DNA of 32,456 bases, taken from contig JASGVX010000139.1 in the NCBI GenBank assembly GCA_030054735.1, forward strand, positions 1-32,456, given 5' to 3'. Within the stretch, counting starts at the first letter, position 1, and the number at the start of each line of letters is the position of its first letter. Below, piece after piece: positions 12,188 to 24,668 of the stretch. The notes beneath the pieces are model-generated. The model did no database searches. It had not been told where the DNA came from and was given only the letters and a program-made list of their open reading frames with translations. The DNA is from Methanobacteriota archaeon (lineage in GTDB: Archaea > Halobacteriota > Methanosarcinia > Methanosarcinales > Methanosarcinaceae). Position numbers and translations under genes: made by a program.

Positions 12188-12515
12188 TACTGGAATATAT
12201 TCCGGAACAGGCAGGTATAGAAAGATTTCCTCAGTCCCGTATAAAAAAAAATATCCTGCTCCATCGCGATCTCCACAATTTCCATGGAAAAATGAATACT
12301 CCACAAAATCCATTTTTTTATTTTCTTTATGAATAAAAGTTTCCTTACCAGAAGGTATGGAAAAGTTATCACATAAGGTGAAGTTTCACCCTGAGGTCTG
12401 CGTAACTTCCTAATAAAAAGAGAAGGAGAAAAGGAAGAAAAGAGAGGAAAAAAAGTACTGAAAAGAGAAGGAGAAAAGGAAGAAGAGAAGAAAAGAGGTG
12501 CTGAAAAGAGAAAAA
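12188..12515. other. Spacer after the ABC operon with palindromes and a purine-rich repeat
   Basis: No gene is seen. It holds GGAATATATTCC (12192-12203), GGTGAA-GT-TTCACC (12377-12390), and a nearly pure-purine tract (about 12415-12510) in which AAAAGAGAAGGAGAAAAGG occurs twice, 45 bases apart (12416 and 12461). The ABC operon and the broken flavoprotein gene converge here, so the palindromes may act in termination. Confidence 0.6.
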
Positions 12516-13234
12516 TCAGAAAAGCTCCAGAACGGTTTCAGGGTTTTCGAGTACAGTTATTCCTTGCAGCCCTTTTACAATCTCAACATTTCGCATATCC
12601 ACGTCCCCGACAAGGACTTCAACGGGCCCGCCCTTTACAGCATTGTAAGGACAGAGTTCTTTGCAGGCCCCGCAGCCTTTGCATTTAAGGAGGTCTATCT
12701 GGTCTGTGACACCGTTTTTTTCAGAAATTGCCCTGTTTGGGCATTTTTCCCGGGGAGGACAGAGCTCACAGTGCCTGCACTGTTTCCTATCAATGTTGTA
12801 GGGAATTTCGGATATTATAGAACCTTCAATGTCCACAGGTACGATATTGACCGGAACCCTTCCTTTAACGGCCTGGGCAGCGGCATTGCTTACAAGGGAA
12901 TCGGCAATCCGCTGGCGATTTTCGAGACCGTGTTTGAAGTTGCAGGCGTAATGAAGAGGGCATTATATCTGTCAAGGAGGAAACTCCCAATTTTGGGGGA
13001 ACTTAAACCCTGCTCACTTTCCTTGAAAATCTCTTCCAGGTAGTCTCCGCCTGAGATTTTCACAAGCTTCTGCTCAAGCCCGTAGATCCGGAGAACTTCT
13101 TCGGCTGCCCTTTAGACATATGTGTTTATGGAAAGTTCGGAGTTTCTGAGTTTTAGTTTTTTAAAGACCTGATAACTGCGATCCAGGAAATGCCCTGCTC
13201 CTGTAATACCCCATGCAATTCTCTGAAAGCTCAT
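12516..13234 (-). pseudogene. Broken archaeoflavoprotein (AfpA/DmrX-like) with C-terminal ferredoxin domain
   Basis: Reading from the ATG at 13234, the frame gives an FMN-flavoprotein start (SFQRIAWGITGAGHFLDRSY). It is stopped by TAA at 13114-13112, continues in frame (RAAEEVLRIYGLEQK..., then NALFITPATSNTVSKIASG), and loses one base near 12910. From there another frame carries on (IADSLVSNAAAQAVKGRVPV) into a 4Fe-4S ferredoxin module (CRHCELC...C, CKGCGACKELC) ending in TAA. The architecture resembles archaeal flavoproteins such as AfpA and dihydromethanopterin reductase DmrX. The nonsense codon is TAA, so pyrrolysine cannot rescue it. The ferredoxin part (12516-12836) stays open from a GTG, but I doubt it is expressed. 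Confidence 0.85.
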
Positions 13235-20654: not shown

Positions 20655-21746
20655 TTACGCAGCAGCTCCGAAACGGTCTCTCAGGACCAAAATCCCTTTG
20701 CTCTTTTTAGCCTCGGCTTCTTCTCTATCCTTCCCCCAGAAAACCAGGGTGAACACAGGATTTTCGTCTTTACACAGGAAAATCTCGATGCCAGGCTCTT
20801 CGTAATATTTGCCGTAATCACTTCCCATGGACAGTAACTGTTCCCCAACAGGTATGAAAACTCCATTTTCTGCAAGCATGAGATGTTCGTAAATACAGTA
20901 CCCATCTTCAGGAAGAGTTTTGATTTCTTCTATACCCTCTGTAAAGGCGCGGAACAGAAGTTCTATGAGGTTAACTCCGGAAGAATAATAGACTGCAGTT
21001 GGGGTCTGACTTGGGAAACGGGCATCGATTTCAATTACTTTCAGCCCATCGGGGCCGGAAATTGCTTCCACGTCCATAATCCCTTTTAAGTGCAGGTTCG
21101 ATGCAAGGGAATAAGCTATCTCTCTAAATGAAGGGTCGAGAGGGAGAGGGGTTACCATATGGCAGCCATAGCTACCGTCGAAATGCACAAGGGTTTCTTT
21201 TACTACAGCAAAGTGATTCCCGTCTCCGATGACCTCAAGGGAGACCACTTCCCCTTCCACATATTCTTCAATCAGCATGCCAGGCTCAAGGCTTTCAAGC
21301 TCTTCCCTGTCATAGATAATTCTTGCTCCCACACTGCTGCTTTCACAGGGGGGCTTTACAAAATAAGGTGGTTCAGATGGTTTGTCCTGAGGGGTTGGGA
21401 TTCCTATGGACGCAAAGTATTCTTTTGATTTTCTTTTGTCCCTGCTAATCCAGTAAGCATCAAAATCAAAGAGTACCGGGCAGGAGAATTTATCTTTTAT
21501 GGTGCTCAGAAACTCTATGCACTCAAGGTTTTCGTTTACCGGCAATATGGCATCAACAATTTTTGAGACCTCAAGAAGTTTTTCCGGCTCCTTTATCACA
21601 TCAAAGCACTGGAACTCATCTGCATAGTTTCTTACAAGCGCCTGAGGATTTTTGTCTATCACAAGCACTTTCATTCCGGCTTTCTTAGAGAGATATGCAG
21701 CCTCAAAGCCCTGCAGTTTCCCTCCTATAAGACATATCGTTTTCAG
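20655..21746 (-). CDS. pylC: 3-methylornithine-lysine ligase PylC (likely CTG start)
   Basis: This ATP-grasp ligase joins 3-methyl-D-ornithine to the epsilon-amine of lysine. With a start at 21746 it is 363 residues, which matches the family, and opens KTICLIGGKLQGFEAAYLSK. ATP-grasp features include YFVKPPCESSSVGARI and EVIGDGNHF ... IEIDARFPSQTPTAVY. No ATG, GTG or TTG fits the family N-terminus: the codon at that position is CTG. It is preceded by GGGGTG (21757-21752) at good Shine-Dalgarno spacing, within the last codons of pylB. In-frame TTG codons upstream would add residues not seen in the family. The stop is TAA. Confidence 0.93.
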   Translation of the reverse strand: MKTICLIGGKLQGFEAAYLSKKAGMKVLVIDKNPQALVRNYADEFQCFDVIKEPEKLLEVSKIVDAILPVNENLECIEFLSTIKDKFSCPVLFDFDAYWISRDKRKSKEYFASIGIPTPQDKPSEPPYFVKPPCESSSVGARIIYDREELESLEPGMLIEEYVEGEVVSLEVIGDGNHFAVVKETLVHFDGSYGCHMVTPLPLDPSFREIAYSLASNLHLKGIMDVEAISGPDGLKVIEIDARFPSQTPTAVYYSSGVNLIELLFRAFTEGIEEIKTLPEDGYCIYEHLMLAENGVFIPVGEQLLSMGSDYGKYYEEPGIEIFLCKDENPVFTLVFWGKDREEAEAKKSKGILVLRDRFGAAA

Positions 21747-21747
21747 G

Positions 21748-22800
21748 CTAACACCCCAGGACTTTTTCAAAATCAGTCTGCGAGGCAGGTTCCATTCCCA
21801 TAATCTCCAGCCTTTTGACAACGCTTGTAATATCCCTGTCCCGCTCTTCCATGCCGCGGTCATAATTGGCAACACCCTCAAGCCTGGGATCTGAAGGGAA
21901 GATAGAGGTTACAATATTTGCCCCGGCGTTTAAGCGGTGCACCATGCCGTCGATACCTTCAAGGTCAAGGGAAGCAGGGATCAGGCATTTCGGGAACATG
22001 AGCCTGAGAACTGCTATAATTTTCAGTTCCGAAAGCTTTGAATTATCCCTGAAATCCTCAAGTGGAGTCCCTTCCTGGGGCAGGAAAGTCATAACTCTTA
22101 CCATGTTTGGATTGTTTGCTTTCATTCCCCTGATGGATATGACAGTCGATTCTATATCGTTTCCTATGCCTGTAAGGATCCCGTCTTCCACACAGTATCC
22201 ATCTTGTTTTGCAAAGCGTCGGGCATTGAGCCGTCTTTCGAAAGACTGTCCGACCCTGAGCTTTTCATAAAGTTCGAGGTCATAGGTTTCCTGGTAGAGG
22301 GCTAAGAAATTTGCCCCTTTCTCCCTGGCTTTAAGAAGAGTGTCTCTGTCCATCACTCCCGGAGAAATCATTATTGGAAGCCCAAGTTCTTCCTTTACTA
22401 TCCTGACAAGATCCACAAACCGGTCAGGGTCATCATAATAATAAGGGTCCTCTCCCATTGTCAGGTCAATCATGTGAAAGCCTTCCCCTTTCAGGGCTTT
22501 GCACATATCTTTTACCTCTTCTACGGTAAGACGGTAGCGGTTAATTTCATTTTTACAGTTATAGTAGCAAAAAGCGCACTGGTTTTTACAATAAGTTGAA
22601 AAATAGATGAAGCAGTTAAGAAATACCCTGTTGCCGAAATAATGGTTTCTGACTTTTTGAGCTACGTAGTAAAGTTTTTCAAGTTCTTCTTCGGATTCAA
22701 GGGAGAGAAGAGCTCTCAGATCATCGTCAGTTAATTCAAAACCTCCAATGATTTTTTCTCCGAAACTATCAGGTTCTTCAGTTACCATTTTTTGGATCAA
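21748..22800 (-). CDS. pylB: Methylornithine synthase PylB (radical SAM), ending in TAG
   Basis: This 350-residue radical-SAM lysine mutase converts L-lysine to 3-methyl-D-ornithine, the first step to pyrrolysine. The cluster motif is CKNQCAFC, and MIDLTMGEDPYYYDDP is characteristic. I take the TTG at 22800 as start because GAGGGTGAAG sits just upstream and the N-terminus MIQKM matches my recollection of M. barkeri PylB; an in-frame ATG 12 bases later is the alternative. The stop codon (21750-21748) is TAG, the codon read as pyrrolysine in this organism. Read-through would add pyrrolysine plus 14 residues before TGA at 21705-21703. It is the only apparently intact gene in the window ending in TAG. 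Confidence 0.95.
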   Translation of the reverse strand: MIQKMVTEEPDSFGEKIIGGFELTDDDLRALLSLESEEELEKLYYVAQKVRNHYFGNRVFLNCFIYFSTYCKNQCAFCYYNCKNEINRYRLTVEEVKDMCKALKGEGFHMIDLTMGEDPYYYDDPDRFVDLVRIVKEELGLPIMISPGVMDRDTLLKAREKGANFLALYQETYDLELYEKLRVGQSFERRLNARRFAKQDGYCVEDGILTGIGNDIESTVISIRGMKANNPNMVRVMTFLPQEGTPLEDFRDNSKLSELKIIAVLRLMFPKCLIPASLDLEGIDGMVHRLNAGANIVTSIFPSDPRLEGVANYDRGMEERDRDITSVVKRLEIMGMEPASQTDFEKVLGC

Positions 22801-24596: not shown

Positions 24597-24668
24597 TGGC
24601 GGAAACCCCGGGAATCTAACCCGGCTGAACGGATTTAGAGTCCATTCGATCTACATGATCAGGTTTCC
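24597..24668 (-). tRNA. pylT: tRNA-Pyl (CUA anticodon)
   Basis: The 72-base minus-strand sequence runs GGAAACCTGATCATGTAGAT ... GGGGTTTCCGCCA and matches Methanosarcina tRNA-Pyl as I recall it. It has a 7-bp acceptor stem (GGAAACC/GGTTTCC), a small D-loop lacking the usual GG, and an anticodon arm with CTA (24638-24636) in TGGACTCTAAATCC. The variable loop is short, the T-arm is CCGGG/CCCGG without TTC, and the CCA end is encoded. It heads the operon pylT-S-B-C-D, 224 bases before pylS. Confidence 0.98.

Follow-up and report, generated by a model that had tools for sequence, protein, structure and literature searches.

A conserved amber stop codon at the pylB–pylC junction of Methanosarcinaceae, a candidate control point of pyrrolysine synthesis

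Why does a gene for pyrrolysine synthesis end in the very codon that is read as pyrrolysine, one base ahead of the next gene of the pathway? That pylB can end in TAG is already known; Rother and Krzycki (2010) gave this stop for M. mazei, M. acetivorans and M. burtonii, and TAA for M. barkeri (PMC2933860). In the part of that article considered here, the pylB UAG is cited as an ordinary stop, and its one-base spacing to pylC, the depth of its conservation and a role in regulation are not mentioned. A partial literature search returned no published feedback role for the pylB stop and no earlier account of how deeply its TAG is conserved or of controls such as those reported here, which, with the conservation depth itself, are new.

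Anatomy of the pylB–pylC junction

The window (the whole stretch of 32,456 nucleotides of Methanosarcinaceae DNA that was analysed) carries a pylB–pylC pair flanked by pylS and pylD:

24597..24668, minus strand: pylT, tRNA-Pyl with a CUA anticodon
23029..24372, minus strand: pylS, pyrrolysyl-tRNA synthetase, 447 aa, stop TAA
21748..22800, minus strand: pylB, 3-methylornithine synthase, 350 aa, TTG start
20655..21746, minus strand: pylC, ATP-grasp ligase of pyrrolysine synthesis, 363 aa from CTG, stop TAA
19834..20613, minus strand: pylD, 259 aa, stop TGA; separated from pylC by 41 nt and preceded by a GAGAGGT of its own

On the minus strand the junction reads ...GTC CTG GGG TGT TAG C CTG AAA ACG ATA TGT..., in which the following elements can be recognized:

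21757-21752, minus strand: GGGGTG, a Shine–Dalgarno (SD)-like site for pylC within the 3' end of pylB, judged with the 16S tails of three related genomes
21750-21748, minus strand: TAG stop of pylB (the pyrrolysine codon), kept by 52 of the 54 genomes that share this spacing
21747, minus strand: single spacer base between the pylB stop and the pylC start, C here and A, G or T elsewhere
21746-21744, minus strand: CTG, the most likely pylC start codon, aligned with M1 of PylC 4FFL and with the start in relatives
21703..21747, minus strand: putative pylB read-through tail of 14 codons plus TGA, overlapping the first pylC codons in another frame

Alignment with the M. barkeri proteins shows that both ends of the junction are correctly placed: PylB residues 1-350 match the 350-residue PylB of PDB 3T7V over the full length, and residue 1 of the PylC in PDB 4FFL falls on the CTG. 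The initial annotation, made from the letters alone, had thus located the pylB TAG, the CTG one base past it and the GGGGTG inside pylB correctly. An upstream in-frame TTG, eight codons before the CTG, is not favoured as the pylC start: it has no SD site, and no conserved N-terminal extension was seen by eye. GGGGTG ends 5 nt before the CTG, i.e. in the upstream gene and at the usual distance, and is predicted to form six pairs with the 16S 3' end (-8.6 kcal/mol), as calculated with tails from the related genomes, the draft assembly holding no 16S rRNA of its own; one relative has GAGGTG instead.

The +1 nt spacing, in the window as in the 54 genomes, lies within the stop–start range of about -8 to +6 nt in which termination–reinitiation operates, and the UAG is in frame in an organism with both pylT and pylS, which makes it a possible site of pyrrolysine read-through. 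Read as pyrrolysine, it would add O followed by PENDMSYRRETAGL to PylB before a TGA at 21705-21703, exactly the 14-residue extension first described. The accompanying claim that this is the only amber stop among 23 genes holds if 12498-13043 is not a gene and fails if it is; this second TAG-ended open reading frame (plus strand, 181 aa, no Pfam match) could be an undescribed small gene or spurious. One TAG stop in about 23 genes is, on its own, expected; what exceeds chance is its conservation.

Conservation of the amber stop against its background

A search for PylB covered 112 genomes of the family, and the pylB–pylC junction was read in most of them as well as in named loci. Among the junctions with one-base spacing, 52 of 54 have TAG, the other two having TAA (L019 and L129). 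Of 26 Methanosarcina genomes, 25 have the arrangement of TAG, exactly one base and NTG, as do all six genomes of two sister genera, those of Methanococcoides (11/11) and Methanohalophilus (8/8) and two further lineages, while over the same genomes the last pylB codon before the TAG varies freely (TGC, TAC, TTA, CAT, GCC, CGA, CAA, AGG and others). The initial annotation had held that its reading would fall if most close relatives carried TAA or TGA at this place, which is not so: TAG is kept in nearly all Methanosarcina, and in Methanococcoides and Methanohalophilus. The non-AUG pylC start, the second feature it had proposed to compare across relatives, proved not to be general. CTG occurs in five genomes that group together in the tree; the relatives have TTG, ATG or GTG, so the CTG is a feature of one clade outside the conserved design. 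Pyrrolysine users can moreover dispense with the TAG, since pylB of Methanolobus and several other genera stops with the TGA of an ATGA overlap and that of one Methanosarcina (L019) with TAA. The latter presumably corresponds to M. barkeri, the TAA exception named in the literature (PMC2933860).

Some loci have other geometries. In the Methanosarcinaceae MAG SBSPR1A (L095/L054), pylB ends in TAG and the pylC ATG lies inside pylB, the aligned start preceding the last base of the stop codon by 13 nt. In L100 (G066), an apparent small duplication has left the TAG 10 nt before the pylC ATG, its congeners having the ATGA overlap, and in L128 (G030) pylB ends in a TAA in frame with pylC three bases on, where read-through would yield a PylB–PylC fusion. 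In two draft Methanosarcina genomes (G076 and G100), pylB is seemingly split over frames, through sequencing errors or because the genes are broken. L201 (G131), from another family of the order, has a pylBCD set like that of g14 (TGA, ATGA overlap), which would reflect transfer or contamination.

The conservation could be mere inertia, i.e. an ancestral TAG without function that has been slow to change, and there is something to be said for this: some stops are kept by chance, and 52 of 54 represents far fewer than 52 independent events because the genomes are related. The neighbouring genes provide a control on the same phylogeny. On a PylB+PylC tree of 51 genomes, the stop changed once in pylB (twice when L129 is added), nine times in pylS and eight times in pylC, and the stops of pylS, pylC and pylD are never TAG at the same loci; the Poisson estimate of seeing one change or none when 8.5 are expected is approximately 0.002. 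Third bases of invariant Lys, Glu and Gln codons in pylB and pylC, counted over the 51 genomes, underwent 3.8 changes on average, and only 1 of 12 such twofold positions is as conserved as the pylB stop, none of them holding G as TAG does. This last comparison loses force within Methanosarcina alone, where 7 of the 21 twofold positions equal the stop in conservation, which is a point in favour of inertia.

The genomic background points the same way as the neighbouring stops. TAG is avoided as a stop in these organisms (2–8% of stops in eight genomes), and in 314 ortholog groups drawn from genome stretches (400 kb of two genomes and 100–200 kb of five others) TAG is common to the two members in 28 of 28 pylB pairs vs 3 of 27 other pairs. 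One of these three looks like the start of a transposase, and transposases with an in-frame amber codon are mentioned in PMC2933860. The N-terminal piece of mtmB, in which TAG is the pyrrolysine codon, served as a positive control and shares it in six of six pairs; pylB is the only true terminator among the 314 groups to be TAG in more than two genomes. The pylB TAG is thus kept above the background of both its genome and its neighbours. Comparisons of this kind make chance a less likely explanation, and inertia is on balance a rather doubtful account of the pattern. A conserved signal is probable.

Constraints on the bases before the pylC start

Selection could act on the nucleotides themselves, TAG being kept for pylC initiation, through the bases just before the start, and not for pyrrolysine decoding. 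The stop indeed sits at -4 to -2 of the pylC initiation region, at a spacing fixed at one base, and in Methanosarcina the SD site can pair with pylC codons 10-13 around a loop that contains the stop. That a one-base spacing forces TAG was rejected: in the genome stretches sampled, 11 other gene pairs with this spacing and an ATG start end in TAA (eight) or TGA (three) and never in TAG, all three TAG cases being pylB, which argues that spacing is not the cause. Nor is there support for the idea that the G of TAG is needed for the SD interaction. In Methanosarcina the duplex with the 16S tail stops before the pylB stop codon, the predicted pairing is mostly weaker in Methanococcoides and Methanohalophilus, and across all genera the site varies. 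Neither spacing nor 16S pairing requires TAG.

A possible 8-bp helix between the pylC SD (21752-21760) and pylC codons 10-13 could hide the SD; its cells are paired in 97% of cases in Methanosarcina and in 67% in other genera with one-base spacing, where it breaks down. It is dictated by coding and displays no compensatory change, and its fold energy is not unusual (z-scores near zero). The 90 nt 3' of the stop contain no conserved read-through-promoting or PYLIS-like RNA element (mean z 0.15), and a PYLIS-like element has been described as not essential for pyrrolysine insertion (PMC2933860). On balance, an initiation constraint is an unlikely reason for the conservation of TAG.

A putative leaky stop as a possible sensor of pyrrolysine

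The reading preferred here is that selection has retained a leaky UAG as the pylB stop. At low Pyl-tRNA(Pyl), the release factor would terminate at this codon, yielding the normal 350-aa PylB, and the ribosome, for which the pylC start is a single base away and which has an SD-like site beneath it, would reinitiate on pylC. At high Pyl-tRNA(Pyl), some of the ribosomes would insert pyrrolysine, pass the pylC start in another frame and stop 14-42 codons inside pylC, which would reduce pylC translation and give PylB a tail that might spoil its activity. The net outcome would be a mild negative feedback on pyrrolysine synthesis. The sign of the proposed effect, more Pyl-tRNA and therefore lower pylC translation, comes from the anatomy of the junction. 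We infer that read-through takes place at this stop and reduces PylC or PylB, and that TAG has been retained for this reason. The mechanism is plausible, and as stated it is given a probability of about 45%. That the UAG acts as a sensor of Pyl-tRNA, pyrrolysine synthesis being controlled through its own codon by diversion of ribosomes past the pylC start, is put forward more tentatively still.

The same anatomy would also suit a slow terminator, at which competition between the release factor and Pyl-tRNA, both of which recognize UAG (PMC2933860), holds ribosomes up at the pylC start and thereby promotes reinitiation instead of lowering it. Part of the ribosomes would still be removed by read-through, and this variant appears quite improbable.

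Another possibility concerns the tail itself. In every one-base-spaced TAG genome it would cross the pylC start, and it never ends in TAG. There is no sign of a conserved tail peptide of the sort that follows the UAG of mtmB: the tail is 14, 20, 23, 39 or 42 residues long depending on the genome and its sequence is another frame of pylC, and for these reasons a functional tail is unlikely. A tailed, pyrrolysine-containing PylB acting as a functional isoform, which read-through would produce in every TAG genome and in favour of which the electrophilic nature of pyrrolysine (PMC2933860) can be cited, is hence very improbable, all the more so as residue 350 is the last one of the M. barkeri enzyme that was crystallised.

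The special property that TAG retains after these comparisons is that it can be read as pyrrolysine. Selection tied to pyrrolysine decoding is the likeliest reason for its conservation, ahead of inertia and of an initiation constraint.

Related autoregulatory loops are known from bacteria. Release factor 2 (prfB) is autoregulated at an in-frame UGA by a +1 frameshift that senses the release factor, and E. coli selAB is autoregulated through a SECIS-like RNA element bound by SelB. As in prfB, a gene that serves decoding would contain a stop codon that reports how abundant its own reading factor is, although pylB would use suppression by Pyl-tRNA, acting on the next gene, instead of a frameshift. 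As in selAB, the machinery of a recoding amino acid would feed back on its own synthesis genes; unlike in selAB, no such RNA element was seen at pylB–pylC. An archaeal parallel is termination–reinitiation in Haloferax, where the stop and start similarly lie within a window of -8 to +6 nt with an SD-like site in the upstream gene (PMC6728339, PMC10666635). There, however, the identity of the stop carries no signal, whereas here the stop can be decoded by the product of the pathway.

The feedback loop had already been suggested in the initial annotation, whose interpretation is partly borne out; it is consistent with archaeal termination–reinitiation and with the read-through known from M. acetivorans. 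In Haloferax, a native +1 nt pair is coupled in this way, and moving its stop by 13 nt lowered the effect by 60%, while a shift of 22 nt abolished it (PMC10666635). A reporter UAG in M. acetivorans directs pyrrolysine insertion at 20–30% and termination otherwise (PMC2933860). At such a level the effect on pylC would be modest, unless read-through is higher here, and it would be further dampened if pylC initiation were not coupled, which it need not be, an SD-like site being available to pylC itself. In E. coli, M. acetivorans pylB is functional when its TAG is replaced by TAA (PMC2933860), a result that does not bear on regulation.

Archaea that use UAG both as a stop and for pyrrolysine have to balance the supply of this amino acid, whose insertion takes no special signal. 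Although TAG is generally avoided, several genera have kept a UAG stop within the pyrrolysine operon, which is a candidate control point. The retention of this stop, despite TAG stops being rare and seldom kept elsewhere in these genomes, suggests that the cell may sense its pyrrolysine level through the codon. If true, this would be an amino-acid feedback loop built from competition at a stop codon and common to much of the Methanosarcinaceae.
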